Made by a program: the position numbers and the translations under genes. A DNA stretch of 48,182 nt, from positions 1 through 48,182 of the forward strand of contig MGEK01000006.1 in assembly GCA_001791325.1 (NCBI GenBank), written 5' to 3'. The stretch is from Candidatus Uhrbacteria bacterium RIFCSPLOWO2_01_FULL_47_25. GTDB lineage: Bacteria > Patescibacteriota > Patescibacteriia > GWA2-46-9. Positions 35,807 to 47,935 of the stretch are shown one piece after another. Below the pieces are notes generated by a model. The model ran no database searches. It worked only from the letters and a program-made list of their open reading frames with translations, and was not told the DNA's origin. The first letter of the stretch is position 1, and each line of letters opens with the position of its first letter.

Positions 35807-35868
35807 GCTGCATATTTTGTTCTTTGATTTATATTCCGGGGTAGCTCAGTGGTAGAGCAGGTGACTGT

Positions 35869-36494
35869 GAACGTATCCGCGGTATACTTTTTATATGCCG
35901 AAACGGAGAACATATGCTGACCGTCGAGAGTACATAAAGGCGGCCGTGGCCAAGCGACGCAAGAAGATTAAAGTCATGGCTGTTGAGTACCTTGGTGGAG
36001 CGTGTCATATTTGTGGTTATAAACGCGCAATAGTAGCTCTTGATTTTCACCACTTGGATAAACATCATAAAGATTTTGCTGTTTCTCAAGATGGATTAAC
36101 AAGAGCTTGGAGTCGTGTGAGTTCAGAGTTAGATAAATGCGTTTTATTGTGCGCGAATTGTCACAGAGAAGTACATGCTGGTGTAATCGCAGCCCCGCGT
36201 AGGAATGCGCGGAGAAAAACTGGGTGAATTCGGGGAAGCCCAGCCCCACTTTTTGATAAGATGCCACCAGTAGATAAATAATTGTGTATTTATTTGCTGA
36301 CGTTAGTACTAGTCATTATCGGTTTTGTCAGAAAGTGGGGCTGGGTAATCCCGAGCCAATACCTGACGGGTAAAAGTGTCAGGAAAGGTGTAGAGACTAG
36401 CGGGTGAGTCCCAACGATAATCCCGCCACGAGCGCCCAGCGCCTAGAACAGGCGATGAGATAGTCCGTCCCTATTGGTAACAGTAGGATAAACG
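35869..36494 (+). ncRNA. Group I self-splicing intron in the tRNA anticodon
   Basis: 626 nt. Exon ACTGT can pair with GCGGT (35879-35883) to form P1 with a U-G pair at the splice site. The core is readable: P-like segment after 36226, long P5 arms (GCCCAGCCCCACTTT near 36238 with AGTGGGGCTGGG near 36333), Q-like GTAATCCCGAGCC, R with GACTA (36395-36399) pairing S TAGTC (36461-36465) as P7, P8 GCCT-AGAACA-GGC, and P9 CTATTG-gtaa-CAGTAG. An extra GCGGG/CCCGC stem follows P7. The last base is G36494. An HNH gene occupies the 5' part. Confidence 0.88.
35895..36227 (+). CDS. Intron-encoded HNH homing endonuclease
   Basis: 110 residues. The basic N-terminus (MPKRRTYADRREYIKAAVAKRRKK) leads to an HNH core: 'CHICGYKRAIVALDFHHLDKHHKDFAVS' with the His pair, and 'CVLLCANCHREVHAG' with the second Cys pair and terminal His. 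Such enzymes cut intronless alleles and drive intron homing. Here the target would be an uninterrupted tRNA-Asn gene. The gene lies between P1 and the catalytic core; its stop overlaps the P segment. It starts 27 nt into the intron. Confidence 0.88.
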   Translation: MPKRRTYADRREYIKAAVAKRRKKIKVMAVEYLGGACHICGYKRAIVALDFHHLDKHHKDFAVSQDGLTRAWSRVSSELDKCVLLCANCHREVHAGVIAAPRRNARRKTG

Positions 36495-36535
36495 TAATCA
36501 CTTGGTCGTGGGTTCGAGTCCCACCCCCGGAGCCA

Positions 36536-36987: not shown

Positions 36988-37449
36988 ATGTTAATATATG
37001 AACTGGAGATGACCTTTAAAGTATTTTCGGGTAACAATATTGCTAAATATATGAGTAGAAAATCTGGTTTTAAACTAACAAAAGAACACAAAAGAAGCAT
37101 AAGCGCAGGGATGAAGCGTGCTTGGGAAAAATCTGTTGGAGGGACAGGGGCAGCCTCTCTTGAGAAGTACGGATTTCTTATAAAAGACAGGAAGCAGATA
37201 AGGAAAGAGGTAATAAAAATGCTTGGTGGAAAATGTAAAAGATGCAACTTTTCTGATATTCGCGCCCTTCAAATAGATCACGTAAATGGGAATGGGAGCA
37301 AGGAAGTTAAGTCGTTTTATGGTGGAAACAAAACAATGCAGAGATATATCTTCACGGGACGACTTCCGAAAGAAAATTATCAGATTTTGTGTGCTAATTG
37401 TAACTGGATTAAGAGACACGAGAACAAAGAGTTTACGCAACCCAAGTAA
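36988..37449 (+). CDS. Free-standing HNH endonuclease with NUMOD3-like motif
   Basis: About 153 residues. 'KLTKEHKRSISAGMKRAWEK' resembles a NUMOD3 DNA-binding motif of homing enzymes. The nuclease core is 'CKRCNFSDIRALQIDHVNGNG' and 'YQILCANCNWIKRHENK', a Cys4 HNH with the DH pair. The start could be ATG 36988, 37009 or 37051; the frame continues upstream to 36928, but that part is repeat DNA. Its position just after the intron-bearing tRNA hints at a shared homing origin, although the two HNH proteins are only distantly alike. Confidence 0.78.
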   Translation: MLIYELEMTFKVFSGNNIAKYMSRKSGFKLTKEHKRSISAGMKRAWEKSVGGTGAASLEKYGFLIKDRKQIRKEVIKMLGGKCKRCNFSDIRALQIDHVNGNGSKEVKSFYGGNKTMQRYIFTGRLPKENYQILCANCNWIKRHENKEFTQPK

Positions 37450-37472
37450 GGTTACTTCCAGTATAAATATGG

Positions 37473-37539
37473 ACCCCGTTAGATATTTGCGGGGTAAAAC
37501 AGGTAAAAAACAAAAAATTATGATGATATCTAATGGGGT
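37473..37539 (+). repeat. ACCCCGTTAGATAT inverted-repeat element at the abiEi start
   Basis: ACCCCGTTAGATAT (37473-37486) and ATATCTAATGGGGT (37526-37539) form 14-bp inverted arms with one mismatch around a 39-bp middle. The right arm overlaps codons 3-7 of abiEi (ISNGV). Related arms are at 39245 and 45773. Confidence 0.7.
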
Positions 37540-38173
37540 GGATAAAAAACCTACAAAGGGCGAATACTTGGATATCTTGTTAAGATCTCCCAAAACCGTC
37601 TTTTCAACCAAAGATGTTGCTTTATTGTGGGTTGAAGAAAGAGAAAATACGGTCAGTGCTAGATTAAATAAATATGCTAAGGCCGGAAAGTTGATTAGAG
37701 TTCGTCGCGGCTTGTATGCCAAAGACAAAAATTACGACAAGTTTGAGTTGGCGACAAGAATCTATACTCCCTCATATATCAGCTTTGAGACCGTTTTGAC
37801 CCGGGCTGGGATTAACTTTCAGTATTACAGCAACATCTTTGTTGCGTCTTATGTTTCGAGAGAAGTAGAAATAGACGGCCAAAAATTTACATTTGTGAGA
37901 ATGAAAAGTTATGTTTTGTCGAATACCGACGGCATTGACCACAAAGCCGGCCATGCCATTGCTACAAAAGAGCGGGCCTTTTTAGACAGAATCTATGTAA
38001 GCAAGGATTATCACTTTGATAATTTGGATTCTTTGGATTGGGATGCGATTTTTCGGATTTTACCCATTTATAACAACAAAAGGATGGCAAAGAGAGTTAA
38101 CGCATATTTTAAACATTATTCCGCAGAAGGCGGATCCGCCTCTGGCGGAAAAAATTCCAATTCAAACATATGA
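37520..38173 (+). CDS. AbiEi-like antitoxin (type IV toxin-antitoxin)
   Basis: 217 residues from ATG 37520 (ATG 37469 or 37523 are alternatives). An N-terminal winged helix ('GEYLDILLRSPKTVFSTKDVALLWVEERENTVSARLNKYAKAGKLIRVRRGLYA') is followed by the AbiEi domain ('YISFETVLTRAGINFQY', 'ERAFLDRIYVSKDYHFDNLDSLDW'). AbiEi antitoxins bind DNA and counter the AbiEii nucleotidyltransferase. It overlaps the toxin gene by 4 bp (ATGA). The C-terminus (GGSASGGKNSNSNI) is encoded by a GGCGGA/TCCGCC hairpin repeat (about 38130-38150) and is probably an acquired tail. Confidence 0.87.
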   Translation: MMISNGVDKKPTKGEYLDILLRSPKTVFSTKDVALLWVEERENTVSARLNKYAKAGKLIRVRRGLYAKDKNYDKFELATRIYTPSYISFETVLTRAGINFQYYSNIFVASYVSREVEIDGQKFTFVRMKSYVLSNTDGIDHKAGHAIATKERAFLDRIYVSKDYHFDNLDSLDWDAIFRILPIYNNKRMAKRVNAYFKHYSAEGGSASGGKNSNSNI

Positions 38174-38865
38174 CCTTAGATTATTCGATACATAAAAACA
38201 TACAGCTTCAGATTCTCAAAGAAATATATACCGACACGACGATTGCTCCGCACCTCGGTTTTAAGGGTGGGACAGCAGCCCTTATGTTTTATGACTTGAA
38301 CCGATTTTCGGTTGACCTTGATTTTGATCTTTTGGATGAAAGCAAAGAGAAAAAGGTATTTGAGAAAATTTTAGAGATTGCCAAAGGATACGGGGATATA
38401 CGAGAATCGCGGATTAAGCGCTACAACTTAATAATAATTCTTTCCTACGACATCAAGGCTCAAAATGTAAAAATCGAAATCAATCGCAGAGAGTTTGGTT
38501 CTCGATACGAGCTCAAAACCCTGCTTGGCATTTCCATGCTTGTAATGATCCGCGAAGATATGTTTGCCAACAAGCTTATGGCAATGTATGAGCGGGTCGG
38601 CAAAACGAGCCGGGATGTTTTTGACGTATATTTCTTTGCGAAAAATAACTGGCCGATTAACAAAGAGATCGTAGAAAAAAGAGCCGGCATGCCTTATAGG
38701 AAAACGGTAGGAAAATGCATTGAGCTTTTAGAGAAGATGAACAATCGGAACATCTTAGATGGTCTTGGCGATTTCTTGACCGAAAGCCAAAAAGATTGGG
38801 CCCGGGCAAAACTCCGTACGGAAACAATTTTTCTATTAAACGCTCGCCTTGAAAGCGAAATATGA
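38170..38865 (+). CDS. AbiEii-like nucleotidyltransferase toxin
   Basis: 231 residues. 'LGFKGGTAALMFYDLNRFSVDLDFDLLDE' contains the GG-T and D-x-D nucleotidyltransferase motif of AbiEii/AbiGii toxins. 'SRDVFDVYFFAKNNWPINKEIVEKR' is the conserved C-terminal helix region. The family modifies tRNA or other acceptors with nucleotides and causes abortive infection or growth arrest. It starts in the ATGA overlap with the antitoxin, giving the canonical antitoxin-toxin order. Length is slightly short of typical AbiEii but the core is complete. Confidence 0.87.
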   Translation: MTLDYSIHKNIQLQILKEIYTDTTIAPHLGFKGGTAALMFYDLNRFSVDLDFDLLDESKEKKVFEKILEIAKGYGDIRESRIKRYNLIIILSYDIKAQNVKIEINRREFGSRYELKTLLGISMLVMIREDMFANKLMAMYERVGKTSRDVFDVYFFAKNNWPINKEIVEKRAGMPYRKTVGKCIELLEKMNNRNILDGLGDFLTESQKDWARAKLRTETIFLLNARLESEI

Positions 38866-38935
38866 AAATGGATATTCGCGGAACGCTCGCCCGGATTGAT
38901 TTTTAATTATTACTTGTAGTGAATTTAATTAAACT

Positions 38936-39340
38936 ATGATTATTGAACTCAAAAAATTCGGCGCAATTCTGATATCCCGTCCCGCCGGCCGGGAGGCGTT
39001 CAACGCTATTCGGCCAGAGCTAAAGCGTGGCGAGGCGGTACAGGTGGATTTTCGCGGAGTGCTTGCGGTAACTCCGTCATGGGTGGATGAATTCCTTTTG
39101 CTTTTAATTGATTATGTCGGCGACAATGTGGAACTTTGGCCGACTGACAACACCTCGGCACTCGCTACGTTTCGGGTACTTGCCGAAGCGAAACAAGAAC
39201 CAGTTGCCAGCCTCGCGCGCCGATATTTAGAAAGTGAAAAATTCACCCCATTAGATACGAAGTTATCTAACGGGGTAAATGTGCGATTCGTCAATAACGA
39301 AGCCAATCGGGAAGAAATTAAGAAAGAGAGAAAAACATGA
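38936..39340 (+). CDS. STAS-like DUF4325 protein, copy 1
   Basis: 134 residues. 'GREAFNAIRPELKRGEAVQVDFRGVLAVTPSWVDEFLLLLIDYV' matches the STAS-like DUF4325 pattern (V.VDF.gV...s..DEF). STAS folds commonly act as phospho-regulated partners of ATPase kinases; no kinase is adjacent to this copy. The tail 'FTPLDTKLSNGVNVRF' is encoded by a palindromic element (39245-39276). The stop overlaps the radC start (ATGA), making it the first gene of a four-gene coupled operon. Copy 2 lies at 45482. Confidence 0.82.
   Translation: MIIELKKFGAILISRPAGREAFNAIRPELKRGEAVQVDFRGVLAVTPSWVDEFLLLLIDYVGDNVELWPTDNTSALATFRVLAEAKQEPVASLARRYLESEKFTPLDTKLSNGVNVRFVNNEANREEIKKERKT
39245..39276 (+). repeat. ACCCCATTAGATA palindromic element in DUF4325 copy 1
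   Basis: ACCCCATTAGATA and TATCTAACGGGGT arms with a 6-bp loop, one mismatch. It lies in frame near the 3' end of the gene and encodes TPLDTKLSNG. Confidence 0.75.
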
Positions 39341-40053
39341 AAATTAAGGACCTGCCCAAAATTGATAGACCACAAAACGAACATCCAAGTGCTGGTCATA
39401 GAAAAAGATTACGCGAAAGGTTTTTGCGCGCTGGGCTGGATGGGTTTGGGGATTATGAAATTGTTGAATTACTTTTAACCTTGGGTACCCCGATGAGAGA
39501 TTGCAAACAAATGGCTAAAGAAGCAATTAAGGAGTTTGGTGGATTACGCGGTGTGCTCGACGCTTCATATGAAGAATTGCAAAAAATAAAAGGACTCGGT
39601 CCTCATAATATTTTTGGCCTGAAATTTTTCCAAGCACTCTCAAAGCGTTATTCTAAAGAGAAACTCCCCAGGAAAATTACATTTGATTCTCCGCAAGCCG
39701 TCATATCTTTTCTTCAAGAAAAAATAGGTCAAGAGCCAAAAGAACATTTCCTGATTCTTTCGTTGAATACGCGCAATAATTTAATCAGGCACGACGAAAT
39801 TTCCATTGGGACTCTCAACGCCAGCATTGTTCACCCGCGCGAAGTTTTCAAAACTGCAATCCAAGCTCTCGCCGCTAATATAATAGTGGCCCATAATCAC
39901 CCTTCAGGTGATTCAGAACCTTCTAGGGAAGATATAGAAATTACCGTGGCGTTGAAAGAAGCTGGTAAAATTATAGGCATCGAGGTTCTAGACCATATAA
40001 TTGTAGCAAGGGAAAAAACTTTCAGCTTCAAAAATAATGACCTTATAGTATGA
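39337..40053 (+). CDS. radC: RadC-family JAB/MPN domain protein
   Basis: 238 residues. An N-terminal helix-hairpin-helix region ('RKRLRERFLRAGLDGFGDYEIVELLLTLG', 'LQKIKGLGPHNIFGLK') precedes a JAMM domain with Glu136 and the metal motif HNHPSGDSEPSRED (His186, His188, Asp at the end). RadC proteins are common in mobile islands; the old link to DNA repair is disputed, and a nuclease or peptidase role is not settled. It overlaps the neighbours on both sides by 4 bp (ATGA), so it is made together with DUF4325 and the MazG-like protein. Confidence 0.92.
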   Translation: MKIKDLPKIDRPQNEHPSAGHRKRLRERFLRAGLDGFGDYEIVELLLTLGTPMRDCKQMAKEAIKEFGGLRGVLDASYEELQKIKGLGPHNIFGLKFFQALSKRYSKEKLPRKITFDSPQAVISFLQEKIGQEPKEHFLILSLNTRNNLIRHDEISIGTLNASIVHPREVFKTAIQALAANIIVAHNHPSGDSEPSREDIEITVALKEAGKIIGIEVLDHIIVAREKTFSFKNNDLIV

Positions 40054-40403
40054 AAGATCAAAGAATAAAGAAACTTATCGCAAAGATAATTAAATTCAGA
40101 GATGCGAGAGACTGGAAGCAGTTTCACAACCCTAAAGATGTCGCGTTATCTCTTGTATTGGAATCGGCAGAAGTGCTTGAACATTTCCAATGGAAAACCA
40201 AAGAGGAAATAGAAGAATACGTTAAAACAGCAAAGAACGAGATAGGAGAAGAACTTGCAGATGTATTATACTGGGTTTTGTTGTTAAGCAATGATCTAGA
40301 AATTGATGTTCTTGATGCCCTTGATTCTAAAATGAAGAAAAATGAACAAAAATATCCAGTTGATAGGGCTAAGGGAAGGCACACAAAGTATACAGATTTA
40401 TGA
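40050..40403 (+). CDS. MazG-like nucleotide pyrophosphohydrolase
   Basis: 117 residues. 'ALSLVLESAEVLEHFQW' and 'NEIGEELADVLYWVLLLSNDLEID' supply the E-x-x-E and E-x-x-D helices that bind Mg2+ in the MazG / RS21-C6 (dCTPase-like) family. These hydrolyse (d)NTPs to (d)NMPs and PPi, either cleaning up modified nucleotides or starving phage. ATGA overlaps on both sides couple it to radC and the EVE-like nuclease. Confidence 0.87.
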   Translation: MKDQRIKKLIAKIIKFRDARDWKQFHNPKDVALSLVLESAEVLEHFQWKTKEEIEEYVKTAKNEIGEELADVLYWVLLLSNDLEIDVLDALDSKMKKNEQKYPVDRAKGRHTKYTDL

Positions 40404-41506
40404 TTGACTTCACCCCGTCATTAATCGCAAAAGGATTTTTCAGGTTTACTGGACCGCCCGAGAACTGGTTGACGGCGATTAAGTTCATGACTTGGGGGTT
40501 AGAAGAAAAGTTACATCCTCGATGGGAAAAAATCCAACCAGGCGACATATTTTTTATACATAGCACAGGCCCGCAAACTTCTTTATTCGAAAACGCTAGG
40601 TCAGGGATTATAGGTTTGGGGGTGGTGGGACCAAATTTCTCAATTAAAAATAATTACCTCTGGATTAGAGAGTTTGAAGAAAAGCGGAATATTTGGCCTC
40701 TTCTGGTCCCTTTTTCAGAAATTTATTTATTTAGCGAACTGCCACCGCGCGAAAGTTGGGTAGTGCCTAGCTCTACAAATATCCAACAAATAACTAACTT
40801 AGTTGATAGGTTATTAAAAAACTACATACCCTTAGCGAGTCTTCAAGGTTTTCCGCGGATGGGAAGTTTTTCTCCTGTTTCTAAAACAGTATCAGAACAA
40901 ATCCTCTATGATAAAAGGCCTCTCTACATTTATACAAGTGAAATAGCGTTAAGTACTCTGAAGGCAAAACCAACAAGATTAGAAAAAATAAAAAGCGCTT
41001 CGGAAACACTGCGATACGCAGAAACATTGAGGGTATTTGACACAATCAGAAAACGAATGGTCCGAGAAACGCCTGGTCAATATACTCGCGATAATGAATT
41101 GCTGGCGAGGGCCGAAGCTGCTCATAGCACTATTTTAGAAGAGCTTATTGAGATATTTAGGAACAAAGGATATGAAACACGCTCAAATAAGCATGTAGAC
41201 CTATTTGCATATAATAAAGAAAGGTCATTCTTGTTCGAAGTAAAAAGTACTGAAAATAAAAATTTCATAAGTCAGGCCAGAAAAGGTTTAATTCAACTTT
41301 TCGAATATGATTATTTCGAAATACGGAAATTCACGTCTGAAAATAAATTTGATTTTAAAGATAAGTATAAAATTTTAGTACCCTCACAAATTCCTAAAGA
41401 CACTAATTATGTGGGGTTCATTAACGATTTAAAAACTGGCGTAGCAGTAGTAAAAGATAGGTCTATTAAACCTGTGGGTGCAGATTTTGGTTTTTCAAAA
41501 ATATAA
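40400..41506 (+). CDS. EVE/PUA-like domain fused to a PD-(D/E)XK nuclease
   Basis: 368 residues. Residues 1-115 resemble an EVE/PUA-like fold ('WEKIQPGDIFFIHSTGPQ', 'GIIGLGVVGPNF'), a domain that reads modified bases. Residues 240-310 carry a PD-(D/E)XK nuclease signature: 'AHSTILEELIEIFRNKGYETR', Asp267 in HVDLFAYN, Glu280-Val-Lys282 in FLFEVKS, then 'SQARKGLIQLFEYDYF'. The combination suggests a modification-dependent endonuclease, as in type IV restriction. It is last in the ATGA-coupled operon. The EVE call is moderate; the nuclease call is stronger. Confidence 0.72.
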   Translation: MIDFTPSLIAKGFFRFTGPPENWLTAIKFMTWGLEEKLHPRWEKIQPGDIFFIHSTGPQTSLFENARSGIIGLGVVGPNFSIKNNYLWIREFEEKRNIWPLLVPFSEIYLFSELPPRESWVVPSSTNIQQITNLVDRLLKNYIPLASLQGFPRMGSFSPVSKTVSEQILYDKRPLYIYTSEIALSTLKAKPTRLEKIKSASETLRYAETLRVFDTIRKRMVRETPGQYTRDNELLARAEAAHSTILEELIEIFRNKGYETRSNKHVDLFAYNKERSFLFEVKSTENKNFISQARKGLIQLFEYDYFEIRKFTSENKFDFKDKYKILVPSQIPKDTNYVGFINDLKTGVAVVKDRSIKPVGADFGFSKI

Positions 41507-41582
41507 TAAAATATAATTCTGTTTATAAACTCTACGCCCTCCCTCCAGAGGCGGGCAGGCACCCCGGAGGAGATTAAGATCG

Positions 41583-43373
41583 TTGAACAAGATTATGGCA
41601 CGAAAAACAATTGAAAATTTAACAAAAAGTAGCCTTTCAAAAGTTTTTAGACGCCTTAAAAAAGATACAAAGGGCTTTTCTACATTATTGGTGCGAGATC
41701 CTATTGATTTTGTAGATTTTGAATCAAATTTGGATGAGGCGCTTGATTCTTTGTTATCTGAAATTAACAAAAATCATTATCACCCTCAAAAACCGTGCCT
41801 ACACCCTTCGCCAAAAAGTAAAGGTATCAATCGCCCAACCGTTGTATTTGATGTAAAAGATGCGCTGGTTTATCGTTTCTGCATTGAACAAATTGAAGAT
41901 GTGCTTTTCAAAAAAGCTAGACAGAAAAACATCCGTGGTGGAGTAAAAATTACCCCGAATCGCGCGGTCAGTGGCGGTGATTTCTACGAAAAATGGTTTA
42001 AAGATTGGGCAGATCACCTAGATGGTATTAAAGATAGCCTCACAACGAAAAGATACTTAGTTAATACAGATATCGCCTCTTACTTTGAAAACATAAATAT
42101 TTTAGTGCTTAAGGACTTGGTGCGAAGTGATGTGAAAGAGAAAAAAGGCGTTATGAATTTACTTTTTTATTTTTTGGAGAATACAAGATTTCGAATCGAT
42201 TATGAAGTTAACACTTTTACAGGACTCCTTCAGGAAGATATTGACTGTTCTCGTGTATTGGCATACTACTTTTTGCATCTTCATGATGGTGTAATGCGGG
42301 CTTTTTGCAAAGAGCATGACGCCGAGTTTTATCGCTTTGTAGACGATATGTCTATTGCAGTAAACTCAGAGGTTATTGGCAAAAAGGCATTAAGATGTAT
42401 CACCGAATCCCTGAGGAGGTTAAATTTAGTATCCAGTATAGAAAAAACCACAATCTTCAATCAAAAAATAGCCAAACAGCAACTTTTCTTTGCTGAAAAT
42501 ACAAAACTATCGGAATTTGAAAAAAATGTCTTGCTTAAGTTGGGAAAAGGTCAAAAAGTTACAAGAGAAGTTCAGGCGATACAGAAATATTACCAAAAAC
42601 TTTTAAGAGATGAGAAAGATGAATACAAAAATTGGATAAAAATACTCAAAAGATTTTATTCACTTGCGGCATACACGAAATCTAACTTTCTATTTTCGGA
42701 TATAACAAAACATCTCATTGATTACCCCATCCTTTTTACAGGAAGCAATACGAAATTAAGTAAATATCTTCTTAGGACCCGGGGCGAGAAAAAATTCAAT
42801 AGTGTGATGAGTGGGATTATTAAATATCTCTATTCAAAGGAAAATCTTTACTCGGCTACCGAGACAAGTTTGCTCGAGCTTTTATTAACTATTGATCCGC
42901 AGAACTATTCTCCTAGTGTAAAAATTAAAATTAAAACCCTAGCTGACGATATTCTATTTAAAAAAAATGGTTATAACCCCCTTTCAGATTATGCTCGAGC
43001 ATTGGCTTGTTTATTTTTCTATCGCTATAGACGCAGCGATATTGATCGGATCGCAAATCACTATTTACGATCAAACGAAGAAAACCGTCTAATAAGAAAA
43101 TATTTGATTTCTGTTTCGTTAATAACGCAAAACAACGATTTGCGAACCAAGGTGTTAAATAAAGCGAAGAAAGAACAAGATCTTTCAATTAACCGTCTGA
43201 TTAATCTCGTTGATAACATCAATGAGTATAAAAAGTTGCCAACAATCAAACACTATCTTAAAGAAAAAGAAGTTTACTATACCTATAAAAATCCATCAGT
43301 TCAGATAATAGAAAAATATAGGGCGGTACGCGCAGAAATACTTAACGAAATTATCAGTATTTACTCAACCTAA
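41583..43373 (+). CDS. Reverse transcriptase of an unknown (defence-like) group
   Basis: About 596 residues. RT motifs: Asp163 in LVNTDIASYFENI, 'TGLLQEDIDCSRVLAYYFL' as the template/primer-grip-like motif, and RFVDD with Asp254-Asp255 as the catalytic pair. Fingers-type segments lie before ('RPTVVFDVKDALVYRFCIEQI'). After the palm, ~300 residues are alpha-helical with no integrase, maturase (X) or HNH domain, which argues against a group II intron or retron and for an Abi/UG-type RT. TTG 41583 has GGAGGAG 10 nt upstream; ATG 41595 is the alternative. It sits 76 bp after the EVE-nuclease gene. Confidence 0.83.
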   Translation: MNKIMARKTIENLTKSSLSKVFRRLKKDTKGFSTLLVRDPIDFVDFESNLDEALDSLLSEINKNHYHPQKPCLHPSPKSKGINRPTVVFDVKDALVYRFCIEQIEDVLFKKARQKNIRGGVKITPNRAVSGGDFYEKWFKDWADHLDGIKDSLTTKRYLVNTDIASYFENINILVLKDLVRSDVKEKKGVMNLLFYFLENTRFRIDYEVNTFTGLLQEDIDCSRVLAYYFLHLHDGVMRAFCKEHDAEFYRFVDDMSIAVNSEVIGKKALRCITESLRRLNLVSSIEKTTIFNQKIAKQQLFFAENTKLSEFEKNVLLKLGKGQKVTREVQAIQKYYQKLLRDEKDEYKNWIKILKRFYSLAAYTKSNFLFSDITKHLIDYPILFTGSNTKLSKYLLRTRGEKKFNSVMSGIIKYLYSKENLYSATETSLLELLLTIDPQNYSPSVKIKIKTLADDILFKKNGYNPLSDYARALACLFFYRYRRSDIDRIANHYLRSNEENRLIRKYLISVSLITQNNDLRTKVLNKAKKEQDLSINRLINLVDNINEYKKLPTIKHYLKEKEVYYTYKNPSVQIIEKYRAVRAEILNEIISIYST

Positions 43374-43464
43374 GAAAAAAATACGCAAATAAAAAGATGA
43401 ATCCAGAAAAATATTATTACAACCGATTTCGTGATCAGTTTACGGAGTTTGTTAGAAAATCAAA

Positions 43465-43626
43465 AGCCCTTTCTCGCCTCTCCAAATCCAAAAACAAATT
43501 GTCCAAAAATTGTCGGTAGTTCAGGAATATAAAACGCGACTCATTGAGCAACGAGCGAAATTAAAAGAACTATTTGACAGTATGCTACATCAATCTTTCA
43601 GTAATAAAACATCCTTACAAACTTGA
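43465..43626 (+). pseudogene. Remnant of a type I restriction specificity subunit (HsdS) C-terminus
   Basis: An open frame reads 'SPLQIQKQIVQKLSVVQEYK' followed by 'TRLIEQRAKLKELFDSML', the hallmark C-terminal coiled coil of HsdS. The rest of HsdS is missing, as are hsdM and hsdR. A separate small frame just upstream (ATG 43397, 'MNPEKYYYNRFRDQF') overlaps it in another register. The remnant runs into the operator-like repeat at 43608. Confidence 0.75.
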
Positions 43627-43641
43627 GAATATGAGAATGTT
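43608..43641 (+). promoter_or_regulatory. Operator-like repeat, site 1
   Basis: AACATCCTTACAAACTTGAG followed by AATATGAGAATGTT, an imperfect palindrome. It ends 5 bp before the SWIM gene ATG. The same core recurs at 44379, 45881 and 46217. Confidence 0.65.
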
Positions 43642-43646
43642 TTTGT

Positions 43647-44378
43647 ATGCAGCCGAAATACGATTTGGATAAAATTAAATTTGCGACGGATGGGCCGACT
43701 TTTGAGAAGGCGGTTGATTTGTATGAGAAAGGAAAGGTAACACAATTTAAGGAAGAACTTAATGGATTTTTCGCGATTGTTTTAGGAACGAAACCATACA
43801 AGGTTTATGTAGATAACCGGCATTATGATCAAGGTGACTGCGAGTGTTATCTCGGCCAGAATGATACGCTTTGCAAGCATATGGTGGCGGTTGCGATTCG
43901 GGCCGTAACCGGTGGTAAACCGCTTTCAGACGAAAATAAGCGGCTTGTAACTCAAGTTACTTGTAGCGGTAAATTGGGGGAGTTAAGCAAGAATGAATTA
44001 TCTGTGGTGAAAAAATCCATCACTGGCGCCATGAAATATATAAAACCGTATAATGGCCCCTCTCGCATTTGGTTTTCATATCAAAGTTCACTGTCGGAAG
44101 GGTGTAATCGGCTGGCAAAAATTGTCTCGGAGTTACCGGTGAGCGAACAGACGGCGAAGTTACTAGTTGATATGCTTCTTCGGCTTGATAACAAACTCTG
44201 CCGGAGCGGTATTGATGATTCTGACGGCACCGTTGGCGGTTTTATTGAGGAAACCGTACAAATGCTCAAAGAATACTCAAAACTTGATCCTTTTTGCGCG
44301 AAAGCGTTCAATGAACTGAAAGACAAAGAAACTTGTTTCGGCTGGGAAGAGCCTCTTTTGGATATTGGTCATCATTAG
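43647..44378 (+). CDS. SWIM zinc-finger protein
   Basis: 243 residues. 'YDQGDCECYLGQNDTLCKHMVAVAI' gives the SWIM motif C-x-C-x8-C-x-H (Cys65, Cys67, Cys76, His78). SWIM fingers bind DNA or protein and often accompany SNF2 helicases; none is near. The C-terminal half is helical ('VVKKSITGAMKYIKPYNGPS', 'ETVQMLKEYSKL') with no known domain. The operator-like repeat at 43608 lies right at its start and another follows its stop directly, so it is likely under the same control as the genes that follow. Confidence 0.8.
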   Translation: MQPKYDLDKIKFATDGPTFEKAVDLYEKGKVTQFKEELNGFFAIVLGTKPYKVYVDNRHYDQGDCECYLGQNDTLCKHMVAVAIRAVTGGKPLSDENKRLVTQVTCSGKLGELSKNELSVVKKSITGAMKYIKPYNGPSRIWFSYQSSLSEGCNRLAKIVSELPVSEQTAKLLVDMLLRLDNKLCRSGIDDSDGTVGGFIEETVQMLKEYSKLDPFCAKAFNELKDKETCFGWEEPLLDIGHH

Positions 44379-44455
44379 AACATCCTTATAAACTTGAGAA
44401 TGTTGGTATGATGTAGTACAATGTGAATATGGGCAAAATTAAAACTGCAAAACAA
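44379..44455 (+). repeat. 77-bp direct repeat (operator, promoter and gene start), copy 1
   Basis: Identical at 75 of 77 positions to 45881-45957. It contains the operator core AACATCCTTATAAACTTGAG, a promoter TTGAGA-N17-TACAAT, and the first codons of the winged-helix gene. Together the two copies flank the MerR-HATPase/DUF4325 cassette. Confidence 0.88.
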
Positions 44456-44464
44456 GGAGTTTGA
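44429..44464 (+). pseudogene. Truncated start of an ArsR-type regulator gene
   Basis: ATG 44429 encodes MGKIKTAKQ, the same first nine residues as the intact gene at 45931, then GV and a stop. The remainder is lost; GC-rich repeat DNA follows. Confidence 0.8.
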
Positions 44465-44743
44465 TCCTGATTAATTTGACGAAGATCCTCCTTCGTCCTG
44501 AATTTACTGAAGGACTACGGACGGGCGCAGCGAGCAACCCGCATGTGCCGACCTGCGCTTCGCCGATGGCTTCGGTCTGGCTTCGGCGGCCGGGAAAAAT
44601 ACCTTATTGCAGTTAAAGAAATTCAAACGGCCTTATATGCGGGCTAATCCTTAATTTTCGCCTATTTTTGCATAGTTTGTTAACTTTGTGCATAGATTTT
44701 ACTGCATATTGCATAGATTTTAAAGATGTAATAGGATACGGAA
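44456..44743. other. Repeat-rich gap before the MerR-HATPase gene with TGCATAG iterons
   Basis: 44486-44520 is a CTTCGTCC..GGACTACGG palindromic repeat; 44550-44595 is a GCTTCGCCGATGGC / GGCTTCGGCGG repeat, both kinds seen elsewhere in the window. From 44669 there are TGCATAG copies at 44669, 44689 and 44710 plus TGCATA at 44703, spaced about 20 bp (two helical turns). They lie 30-75 bp before the ATG and may be operator sites for the encoded MerR-type protein. No gene is seen. Confidence 0.55.
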
Positions 44744-45463
44744 ATGGATGAAAGATTGCTTAAAATTAGTGAAGCCGCCGAAATTCTAGGTGTTTCTATA
44801 GATACGCTTCGTCGTTGGGATGAAAGTGGGAAGTTAACTGCGATTAAAAAGGAGGGCGGTACGCATCGTTATTATTGGGAAAAAGATATAGAGATTTTTG
44901 CAAGCGATCTTTTTAAGTTTGCTTCTGATTGGATCAAAGAGGGAGCCGAATTTCCCGGCACTTTTTACTGCCCTACGAGCGCTGTGTTTCAGGCAAGGCT
45001 GGTAAAAATGGAGCGTATGATTATGGAAAAGCCGGGCTTCGAAAAATTATACTCTTTGATTGTTCTGGTAGCCGGGGAAATCGGAGATAATTCATTTGCT
45101 CATAACTTGGGAAAATGGCCGGATACTCCGGGGATCTTCTTTGGATACGACATTCAAAAGGGTACCATTGTTCTTGCCGATCGGGGTTTGGGTATTTTAG
45201 AAACGTTGCGCCGCGTTCGCCCGGATTTATCTACGCATGTGAAAGCAGTTGAGGTGGCATTTACGGAATTTATATCCGGCCGCGCGCCGGAAAAGCGTGG
45301 TAATGGTCTTAAATTAGTTCGAGAAGTGGTTCTTACCCAGCCGATTGATCTATTTTTCGTGAGTGGTGATGCAGAGGTATATTTAAAGGGCGCCAATAAA
45401 TCCTTTCAGGTTACTCGTGGCCCGAATGTAATACGCGGTTGTATGGCAAAAATTAATTTTTAA
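44744..45463 (+). CDS. MerR-type HTH fused to a GHKL/histidine-kinase-like ATPase
   Basis: 239 residues. Residues 4-50 form a MerR/excisionase-type HTH ('LKISEAAEILGVSIDTLRRWDESGKLTAIKKEGGTHRYY'). Residues ~95-235 look like a GHKL ATPase: N box Glu112-x3-Asn116 (GEIGDNSFAHN), G1 box DRGLGI (146-151) and G2 box KRGNGLKLV (184-192). No phospho-acceptor His domain or receiver is present, so it resembles RsbW-type anti-sigma/Ser kinases more than a sensor kinase. A STAS-like protein follows 18 bp later, suggesting partner switching that controls DNA binding. This pairing is an inference. Confidence 0.8.
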   Translation: MDERLLKISEAAEILGVSIDTLRRWDESGKLTAIKKEGGTHRYYWEKDIEIFASDLFKFASDWIKEGAEFPGTFYCPTSAVFQARLVKMERMIMEKPGFEKLYSLIVLVAGEIGDNSFAHNLGKWPDTPGIFFGYDIQKGTIVLADRGLGILETLRRVRPDLSTHVKAVEVAFTEFISGRAPEKRGNGLKLVREVVLTQPIDLFFVSGDAEVYLKGANKSFQVTRGPNVIRGCMAKINF

Positions 45464-45481
45464 CGTAATCTAATAAAATAT

Positions 45482-45808
45482 ATGAAATTAAAATTAGAAA
45501 AATTCGGCACTACTCTCATGTCCCGTGAATTAGGCAGCGAGGCATTCAAAGCGTTCCAGCCCACCTTGCTTGAACTTTACCCGTCCGATGAGCTGGAAAT
45601 TGATTTTTCCGGCGTATTAACATTGTCATCCTCATGGGCGGACGAGTTTTTAAGTCCTCTACTTGAAAAATTGGCTGAACGGCTGGTGTTATTGCCCTCT
45701 GACAATCTCTCGGTGCAAGCAACCTTAAAGATTCTGCAAGAGGCGAATAAACGCCCGTTCAAATTTAGATTCACCCCGTTAGATATAGCAAACGATCTAA
45801 CGGGGTAA
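45482..45808 (+). CDS. STAS-like DUF4325 protein, copy 2
   Basis: 108 residues. 'ELEIDFSGVLTLSSSWADEFLSPLLEKL' is the DUF4325 core and 'LVLLPSDNLSVQATLKILQEAN' the following helix. It is paralogous to the gene at 38936 (similar start 'KLEKFGTTLMSRELGSEAFKA' and tail 'FTPLD'). It follows the MerR-HATPase gene closely, so the two likely form a regulator-partner pair. The 3' end, including the stop codon, is made of the ACCCCGTTAGAT palindrome. Phospho-acceptor Ser candidates lie in the SSSW stretch. Confidence 0.8.
   Translation: MKLKLEKFGTTLMSRELGSEAFKAFQPTLLELYPSDELEIDFSGVLTLSSSWADEFLSPLLEKLAERLVLLPSDNLSVQATLKILQEANKRPFKFRFTPLDIANDLTG
45773..45806 (+). repeat. ACCCCGTTAGAT palindromic element at the end of DUF4325 copy 2
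   Basis: ACCCCGTTAGAT (45773-45784) and ATCTAACGGGGT (45795-45806) are perfect 12-bp arms; the right arm runs into the stop codon. A further half-copy ACCCGTTAGATAT follows at 45811. Confidence 0.8.
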
Positions 45809-45830
45809 ACACCCGTTAGATATTTATAAT

Positions 45831-46825: not shown

Positions 46826-47935
46826 ATGGTTGACCAGCGAAAGATTTTGGAATGGCACCGCAAAGGGGTGAAGACAATCGTCACGCACATGGATCCGCAC
46901 CCTGACGAGATCGTAGCGATTCTCCTTGCTCGTTCCAAGCCGGGATTGCAGTATTTTCCGGGCGCGGACACGGCGCCGATTGAAACGTGGTCCAAGTCAG
47001 ATGAGCGCCTTCAGCGACCGCCGGACGCATTGGCACAGGAGGGCTGCCTCCTTATTGGCATTGGCGGCAGTCCGTTTGATGAGCACGCTACCGAGCACGG
47101 AGAGGGAAAGCCCGGCTGTGCTTCAACCTTGATGGCAAAGCTTCTCGGCTTTGACAAGGTTGACCAGTTGCGAAAGTTCCTCAAGCACATCGAGCGTAAC
47201 GACAATGGTCAGTGGGGTCAGTTTGATCTTGCGACCGCTGTCATGCAGATGTACGACGAGGGGCGGCCGACCGATTCCGCCCTGACTGCCCGACACCAAC
47301 AGCGGTGCGTGGGAATCGCCTTGCACCTCTTCAGCGCCTTGGTGAACCGTCACCTGCGGTTCTTGAGTGAAGGCGCTGCGGCTTTTGCGGCGGCCCAGAA
47401 GTTCAAGGTGGAGCGCCGCGGTGACCGCCGTGTTATCAACATCGCCGTCGGCGTCAGCGACGCCGAGAGCTTCCCGCGCTATGCCCGCTCCGAGCGAGGG
47501 AACAGTGCAGACATCGTCATCGTCAAGAGTCCGTCGACCGGGTGTATCTCCATCCTGACGGTCGATCAGAAATTCGACCTGACGCCGCTTGCCCGGGCGC
47601 TCCGGATGCGGGAGCTCTATCTCCGCAACCAGCACCGCGGCACGGGGTGGGAAGAGCTCTCGTGTGTTGGTGTTCATCCGGCTGTTCCCGAGTGGTATCT
47701 TCACGACAGGCGCGGTCTTGTTCTCAACAAGAGTCGAGTTCGCCCCGACGCCCCGCCGACGCAGATTCCCTTGGAGGACGTGGTTGACATGACCGAGTGG
47801 GTGGTCGGCGGGTGGCTACCGGAGTTTCGGGATCAGTCCTGCGTCCGAGCCCAATGCTGTTTCTGGGAGAAGTGCTCGGTCTACGCCCTTGGCCTGCCTC
47901 GGTGCAGGGATTATCGCCGCGAGCTTGCTGCTTAG
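46826..47935 (+). CDS. Uncharacterised protein with an HxDxHxDE metal-like motif
   Basis: 369 residues. The N-terminus 'KTIVTHMDPHPDEIVAILLAR' has His21-x-Asp23-x-His25-x-Asp27, and 'LLIGIGGSPFDEHATEHGEGKPGCASTLMAKLLG' follows, recalling the Asp/His-rich metal sites of DHH/MYG1-type phosphohydrolases, although the match is loose. The C-terminus has a Cys cluster ('CVRAQCCFWEKCSVYALGLPRC') that could bind zinc or an Fe-S cluster. GC content is clearly higher than in the island before it. Strong promoter, leader, ribosome-binding site and terminator mark it as a monocistronic unit. Function unknown; a metal-dependent hydrolase is a guess. Confidence 0.8.
   Translation: MVDQRKILEWHRKGVKTIVTHMDPHPDEIVAILLARSKPGLQYFPGADTAPIETWSKSDERLQRPPDALAQEGCLLIGIGGSPFDEHATEHGEGKPGCASTLMAKLLGFDKVDQLRKFLKHIERNDNGQWGQFDLATAVMQMYDEGRPTDSALTARHQQRCVGIALHLFSALVNRHLRFLSEGAAAFAAAQKFKVERRGDRRVINIAVGVSDAESFPRYARSERGNSADIVIVKSPSTGCISILTVDQKFDLTPLARALRMRELYLRNQHRGTGWEELSCVGVHPAVPEWYLHDRRGLVLNKSRVRPDAPPTQIPLEDVVDMTEWVVGGWLPEFRDQSCVRAQCCFWEKCSVYALGLPRCRDYRRELAA

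Follow-up and report, generated by a model that had tools for sequence, protein, structure and literature searches.

The window analyzed here is a stretch of 48,182 nucleotides of contig MGEK01000006.1 from Candidatus Uhrbacteria bacterium RIFCSPLOWO2_01_FULL_47_25, a patescibacterial genome of 1.2 Mb in 40 contigs that is rated 100% complete, and our subject is a run of four genes within it that encodes a MazG-family nucleotide pyrophosphohydrolase and, in the gene that follows, a probable modification-dependent nuclease. An original prediction made from the same DNA had described the four as coupled in the manner of an operon, and the window sequence confirms this, with four consecutive plus-strand open reading frames (ORFs) joined by three overlaps of exactly 4 bp (ATGA):

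38936 to 39340, plus strand: ORF1, a STAS-like protein related to DUF4325 (20.3 bits), an optional regulatory part.
39337 to 40053, plus strand: radC, of the JAB/RadC family (PF04002, 156 bits; NCBIfam RadC, 237 bits), a recurrent optional part.
40050 to 40403, plus strand: mazG, a predicted dCTPP1-type all-alpha nucleoside triphosphate (NTP) pyrophosphohydrolase (PF12643, 65 bits), the constant member.
40400 to 41506, plus strand: ORF4, the effector, a predicted EVE-like reader with a PD-(D/E)XK nuclease (half-profiles, invariant motif).

The MazG call of the original prediction is upheld not only by the PF12643 score but by a profile match to human and mouse dCTPP1 (6sqw, 2a3q) at E = 1.7e-19, in which the catalytic residues are aligned. 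The closest solved structures are the A. fulgidus protein 4qgp, which we take to be AF1178, and human/mouse dCTPP1. The metal-binding and pocket residues are W22, H26, E38, E41, W48, a second E..D pair, K94, N98, Y102 and K113-Y114, and the catalytic residues are kept in at least 90% of 30 homologues. With membership in the all-alpha MazG fold family, the E..E/E..D metal site and the pocket residues all in place, the window protein is, by its sequence, a dCTPP1-type NTP pyrophosphohydrolase. Deoxycytidine triphosphate (dCTP) is a good substrate of dCTPP1, which also hydrolyzes 5-methyl-dCTP and lowers its cellular level (PMC4491611), while 5-methyl- and 5-hydroxymethyl-dCTP are incorporated by polymerases as well as dCTP is (PMC10742078). 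MazG domains are among the predicted, unvalidated defense domains (PMC13092281).

The ORF4 product is probably a modification-dependent nuclease that would cut modified, phage-like DNA, and it divides, in agreement with what had been proposed for it, into an EVE-like part (approximately residues 1-118) and a nuclease part (approximately residues 225-368). A profile of the N-terminal 118 residues with six relatives matches two UPF0310/EVE structures in the PDB, 2p5d (E = 0.0014) and 1wmm (E = 0.0025), with nothing else in the PDB better than E = 1, and gives 75% against a bona fide EVE set (PF01878) in hhalign. The signature GDIFFIHS...IIG fits the EVE pattern GD..fYHS...I.G (as GD..f.HS...IIG), and the best Foldseek match for the ORF4 model is also 2p5d, at low confidence and below significance. 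In the nuclease part, D267, E280-x-K282, Q292, Q299 and Y303 (D47, E60-x-K62, Q72, Q79 and Y83 in the nuclease-half profile A6) are invariant in five divergent members, and this half matches Hjc (up to 9e-4) and PDDEXK_9 (0.08) weakly. The PD-(D/E)XK call is made because the motif is invariant, the fold models being too poor to accept or reject the domain. A plain Pfam search of ORF4 had yielded chance-level matches only, to RolB_RolC and Hjc, and was replaced by the half-profiles.

EVE domains in restriction enzymes read modified bases (PMC7641849, PMC7897488), and the sequence features of a Type IV enzyme of the EVE type are found here, namely an EVE/PUA reader, nuclease catalytic residues (judged on the motif) and no methyltransferase in the module, none of whose genes encodes a cognate modification methyltransferase. 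A C5-cytosine methyltransferase (PF00145) is likewise absent from the window genome, from two other genomes that carry the module (G089 and G155; G numbers are surveyed genomes, G000 being the window's own, and L numbers are loci) and from a Roizmanbacteria genome, as a trigger of the 5-methylcytosine (5mC) type would need.

Full-length relatives of ORF4 are found in G089 (57% identity), on a Roizmanbacteria contig (55%), on a Paceibacterota contig (47%) and on a haloarchaeal plasmid (26%); the Roizmanbacteria copy is broken by an in-frame stop and a further copy, in G340, is cut at the contig end, and both were taken unrepaired. Within the phylum they are rare, with seven matches in 380 genomes, the window included and only one full-length relative among them, and there are no homologues besides the window's among 381 genomes of its class, nor any in IMG/VR or phage records. 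The gene is nonetheless adjoined by mazG in all five loci formed by the window and the four full-length relatives; mazG lies upstream with a 4-bp overlap in all four patescibacterial loci, the window's included, and in the haloarchaeon Halosegnis it is convergent with the EVE-PD-(D/E)XK gene, again overlapping it by 4 bp. Since the mazG-nuclease order is kept with the same overlap in such distant relatives, it is well beyond chance, and the conserved neighborhood that the original prediction called for thus exists. Next after the pair at the Paceibacterota locus comes a Shedu SduA gene (254 bits; all defense-system models are those of PADLOC-DB 2.0.0). In G089 a gene for a 288-residue protein, probably membrane-bound and without a PADLOC match (L010:8365-9228), overlaps the EVE nuclease gene by 4 bp on its downstream side and is a possible extra part.

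The partnership extends beyond EVE nucleases. When an even sample of 362 genomes across the phylum was searched with a MazG profile and the neighborhoods of the 34 best matches were read, a nuclease gene was found to follow mazG in 18 of the 23 closest (those above 123 bits; 16 of 21 when the two profile seeds are set aside), compared with a nuclease neighbor for 2 of the next 11, and the lower-scoring MazGs of G148 and G302 flank ribonucleotide reductase, an ordinary house-cleaning setting. Four unrelated builds occur among the 18 nucleases: EVE-PD-(D/E)XK (2), EVE-HNH (1, in G155, with an HNH score of 41 bits), a GIY-YIG-Schlafen-helicase (5) and a PD-(D/E)XK-Schlafen-helicase (10), the last separated from mazG in G351 by an OLD-family gene. 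The Schlafen-group-3 helicase calls score 233-348 bits, and the GIY-YIG and PD-(D/E)XK N-termini of these effectors were assigned by reading the sequence. Approached from the helicase side (PF09848), 17 such genes occur in 16 of 344 genomes, and mazG lies immediately upstream of 13 of the 17, with a chance expectation of essentially none under a rough model of approximately 1,000 genes per genome.

That effectors have been exchanged is indicated by the MazGs of G089, beside an EVE nuclease, and of G144, beside a GIY-YIG-Schlafen nuclease, which are 89% identical. The MazG tree is poorly resolved, with two well-supported branches only, and requires 13 effector changes vs 13.4 with shuffled labels, so that effector type shows no clustering in it and the number of swaps is not given by it. 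Two further observations concern these loci. The GIY-YIG-Schlafen effector of G163 (L052:4901-6937) is fused at its C terminus to a LexA-like Peptidase_S24 domain (68 bits), which suggests DNA-damage-controlled activity, and RhuM or BRO-N/DinD-like proteins are encoded just upstream of mazG in L070, L049, L010 and L046, the RhuM scoring 475 bits against the PADLOC candidate PDC-S05.

Comparable pairs are present in other phyla. A Priestia plasmid (L087:3349-7255) carries in one run the genes for MutT, MrcB_N-HNH, MazG (with a 4-bp overlap) and a PD-(D/E)XK-Schlafen protein, two nucleotide-pool enzymes thus standing beside a probable type IV nuclease, and on Halalkalicoccus and Marivirga plasmids the gene immediately after mazG is of the PD-(D/E)XK-Schlafen kind. 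Nocardiopsis has a 4-bp overlap between mazG and the gene for an HNH endonuclease, and the pairing recurs, with homologous proteins, in Streptomyces and on Bacillus-type viral contigs, the HNH part being putative in Bacillus. Like the EVE-HNH protein of G155, the Priestia MrcB_N-HNH and the HNH enzymes of Nocardiopsis and Streptomyces thus add to the mazG partners that are readers or nucleases of the modification type, which favors a role in modification-dependent restriction. Halorussus encodes a fusion of the EVE type found in ORF4 with a McrB-like AAA ATPase. Taken together, these loci identify mazG plus a nuclease gene, often with radC, as the conserved core, and one MazG working with several unrelated nucleases points to a mix-and-match antiviral system. 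The remaining operon genes are optional: RadC and the DUF4325/MerR-ATPase proteins described below are accessory or regulatory parts, and the single fixed composite that had first been pictured is not what the other genomes show.

The RadC assignment stands, and its motif HNHPSGDSEPSREDIE is intact. In addition to the window, radC adjoins mazG or the effector in four loci, those of Roizmanbacteria (L008), G126, G010 and G179, the last three encoding proteins 58%, 64% and 32% identical to the window copy, and it is single-copy in G000, G126 and G010. The Roizmanbacteria contig starts inside a radC immediately upstream of its mazG, which places radC-mazG-ORF4 in that order in a second lineage as well. 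ORF1, RadC and MazG have no PADLOC family, and ORF4 matches only PDC-M29B, at E = 0.037.

Outside the four-gene run the window contains several features that bear on its setting and regulation:

41583 to 43373, plus strand: UG13-type reverse transcriptase (RT; PADLOC RT_UG13a, 218 bits), an island neighbor outside the module.
37286 to 38865, plus strand: AbiEi/AbiEii-like pair (PADLOC, 198 and 256 bits), an island neighbor outside the module.
44744 to 45463, plus strand: fusion of a MerR-type helix-turn-helix (HTH) and a GHKL-ATPase-like domain (MerR, 43.6 bits), not contiguous with the operon.
45482 to 45808, plus strand: second DUF4325-like protein, an ORF1 paralogue (DUF4325, 21.9 bits).

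The STAS-like ORF1 protein itself falls below the DUF4325 cut-off of Pfam (20.3 vs 23 bits), but it is clearly related to two such proteins, with 43% identity to the window protein encoded at 45482, the only other DUF4325-like protein in the window genome, and 46% to one in G163 that scores above the cut-off and whose gene sits immediately upstream of mazG. The gene at 45482 begins 18 bp past the MerR-ATPase gene, whose product has no HATPase match in Pfam and carries the motifs GEIGDNSFAHN, DRGLGI and RGNGLK; it is 62% identical to the product, in G163, of the second gene before mazG, so that in G163 a MerR-ATPase and DUF4325 pair immediately precedes mazG. In G298 a fused HTH-ATPase-DUF4325 protein is encoded immediately downstream of mazG. 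The MerR-ATPase is thus a probable partner of DUF4325 proteins, and, judging from these gene arrangements, ORF1 may be run by the MerR-ATPase partner of the window pair (44744-45808), encoded 3.2 kb downstream of the operon. Membership in MADS (the mad1-mad8 set) was considered for this region and rejected: the sole match is that of the mad1 HTH part in the MerR-ATPase protein, and nine further proteins from 37286-45805 were compared with the PADLOC mad models without a match.

Both DUF4325 paralogues also contain, within their 3' coding ends (39245-39279 and 45773-45806; peptides FTPLD...), a REP/REPIN-like palindrome, ACCCCGTTAGA...TCTAACGGGGT, which in ORF1 falls in the last approximately 40 codons and which the G163 homologue lacks, so that there were either two insertions or one that predates the duplication. 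The palindrome is found in the window at 37473, 39245-39279 and 45773-45821 and across the genome, at 232 sites with at most one mismatch vs 22 for a control pattern, many of them forming inverted pairs approximately 90-95 bp apart. A search of the window genome for a Y1 transposase (PF01797) gave no match.

The RT and the AbiE pair are present as originally described, the RT beginning at a TTG at 41583, 76 bp past ORF4, and the AbiE-like genes ending at 38865, 70 bp before ORF1. Together with the Shedu gene beside the Paceibacterota copy they bear out the defense setting of the module. The G+C content of radC, mazG, ORF4 and the RT gene is 34-40%, compared with 45-47% for nearby dnaG, rpoD and nadA, as expected of acquired genes. 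Elsewhere in the window, the gene at 46826-47935 has 60.6% G+C against approximately 45% for the window, either a recent foreign acquisition or a question of binning or assembly. A repeat, CTTATAAACTTGAGAATG, occurs in three copies (43614, 44385 and 45887), of which the two better ones run on into promoter-like TTGAGA-17-TATAAT/TACAAT, and the copy at 44385 is followed by the beginning of the 45925 gene, duplicated and broken. A group I intron (36133-36487; Rfam RF00028, 69.8 bits) lies within the region 35845-36535, accompanied by an HNH homing-endonuclease ORF (35895-36227), and appears to split a tRNA gene at the anticodon loop, the halves resembling tRNA-His(GTG); ARAGORN called no tRNA at this site.

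The reading that we favor, with confidence evenly balanced, is that the MazG-coupled nuclease module carries out modification-dependent restriction, with MazG acting on modified nucleotide precursors. Gene coupling, a conserved partnership, effector exchange, active-site conservation, an EVE-like reader and a nuclease motif are all established at the level of sequence. From them we infer modified-base recognition, DNA cleavage, the MazG substrate and the anti-phage and pool-guarding roles, which could be arranged as follows. The dCTPP1-type MazG, the constant part, would convert dCTP-like nucleoside triphosphates to monophosphates, and the exchangeable nuclease would be translated from the next gene; here its EVE domain would read a modified base in incoming DNA and the PD-(D/E)XK domain would cut the DNA so recognized, as a Type IV (modification-dependent) restriction enzyme does. 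MazG would destroy modified deoxynucleoside triphosphates (dNTPs) made by the phage or recycled from cut phage DNA, which would thereby be kept out of both phage and host DNA, with the outcome that modified phage genomes would be limited and the host chromosome spared its own nuclease. More tentatively, and with considerable doubt, MazG may be the self-protection half of the system, acting on precursors rather than on DNA, in the place that the methyltransferase takes in classical restriction-modification, and serving interchangeable nucleases.

Several observations weigh against modification-dependent restriction with a precursor-cleaning MazG. The AlphaFold model of ORF4 from four sequences has a pLDDT of 47, too low to judge the nuclease domain, and that of the domain alone, whose best-predicted part is an alpha-beta-beta-beta core, has a pLDDT of 52, also too low to judge it, with non-significant Foldseek matches. 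The dCTP specificity of MazG is taken from homologues of approximately 40% identity. The Paceibacterota genome with the same module contains three C5-cytosine methyltransferases and so argues, in that genome, against a simple 5mC trigger. No modified-base reader is evident in the Schlafen-helicase effectors, which the pool-guarding idea thus fails to explain directly. In the incomplete gene table of PLSDB, mazG is not a neighbor of the Schlafen genes from Methanosphaera, from Hymenobacter or from one plasmid of Streptomyces.

The reader-less Schlafen-type effectors would be better served by one of two other accounts. In the model of the original prediction, which we regard as possible though on the unlikely side, MazG would hydrolyze dCTP or dNTPs broadly upon infection, starving the phage while the nuclease cuts its DNA. 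This suits dCTP as a good dCTPP1 substrate (PMC4491611), is equally compatible with all four effector builds, the reader-less ones included, and finds MazG domains among the predicted, unvalidated defense domains (PMC13092281), yet a constitutive dCTPase would harm the host, no switch for MazG activation is visible, and nothing in the gene order points to canonical rather than modified nucleotides. Removal of modified precursors is favored over general starvation, although the evidence does not separate the three readings of MazG. The third of these, quite improbable in our estimation, is a nucleotide-gated arrangement resembling a toxin-antitoxin pair, in which MazG would restrain the nuclease at normal pools and free it when a phage alters the pool. 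A short upstream gene that overlaps the nuclease gene by 4 bp resembles toxin-antitoxin order, one MazG type accompanies many unrelated nucleases, and a precedent exists in the defense nuclease Ppl, which is inhibited by NTPs and released upon pool depletion (PMC12904381); however, MazG would have to bind at least four unrelated proteins, it retains every catalytic residue although a protein acting as an inhibitor alone could do without them, and some homologous Schlafen effectors occur without mazG.

It is very unlikely that a housekeeping MazG stands beside nucleases by chance or through shared transfer on mobile islands, with no joint function: lower-scoring MazGs do adjoin unrelated genes such as ribonucleotide reductase, and the genes are AT-rich in the manner of acquired DNA, but the genes adjoin directly in 18 of 23 cases and in 13 of 17, overlaps of exactly 4 bp recur in lineages that are unrelated, and close MazGs differ sharply from distant ones, all of which argues against it. 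Scarcely credible is a single composite of six or seven genes with the UG13 RT and AbiE among them, as originally suggested. These genes share the strand and are closely spaced (76-bp and 70-bp gaps), but none of the other MazG-nuclease loci contains a homologue of the RT, of AbiEi or of AbiEii, nor of a SWIM protein; the RT and AbiE were rejected as system parts, and the RT is a DRT-like gene beside the module that is unlinked to it elsewhere.

MazG had previously been a possible defense part without a tested partner (PMC13092281). One MazG subfamily is now tied gene-to-gene to four nuclease builds in Patescibacteria, where phage defenses are little explored and to which a putative defense module is thus added, and to other nucleases in Bacillota, Actinomycetota and haloarchaea. 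The resulting two-gene unit is well defined and open to cloning and testing in laboratory strains, and with it the way in which a modified-DNA nuclease avoids its own host becomes testable at the level of the nucleotide pool. The 2015 work of Burroughs et al. on nucleotide-centric conflict systems may contain related predictions. In the open literature searched, no description was found of MazG with Schlafen helicases, EVE or RadC. Given the lack of a PADLOC match, an EVE survey in which, by occurrence counts, neither MazG nor RadC is mentioned (PMC7641849) and the unvalidated status of MazG (PMC13092281), we consider this combination of known parts new.

Its parts have known counterparts. The window MazG is homologous to dCTPP1 (RS21-C6 of human and mouse), an all-alpha enzyme with which it shares all catalytic residues and whose known substrate range takes in 5-methyl-dCTP, although dCTPP1 is a eukaryotic house-cleaning enzyme uncoupled from any nuclease and the substrate of the bacterial protein is only predicted. 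PADLOC PDC-S41, AbiO and Nhi contain Schlafen-group-3 or related helicases and so have the helicase domain in common with the alternative effectors of the module, but their models score these effectors weakly (24-75 bits), whereas a true PDC-S41 gene, in G245, scores 819 bits and belongs to a separate subfamily. MutT genes adjoin SauUSI type IV enzymes (figure legend in PMC7641849), similarly placing a modified-cytosine nuclease beside a nucleotide-triphosphate pyrophosphohydrolase, though MutT, a Nudix enzyme, has no relationship to MazG and the nuclease is of another build; on the Priestia plasmid MutT and MazG are both present. The nearest likeness in composition is to the EVE-HNH endonucleases of the VcaM4I type and other Type IV enzymes, which also combine a PUA/EVE reader with a nuclease and no module methyltransferase, and whose build recurs in the G155 locus of the present survey, while in ORF4 the nuclease is of the PD-(D/E)XK type and its gene shows translational coupling with that of a dCTPP1-type MazG. 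All the parts come from known families, and what would be new is the pairing of Type IV-like restriction with a nucleotide-pool partner.

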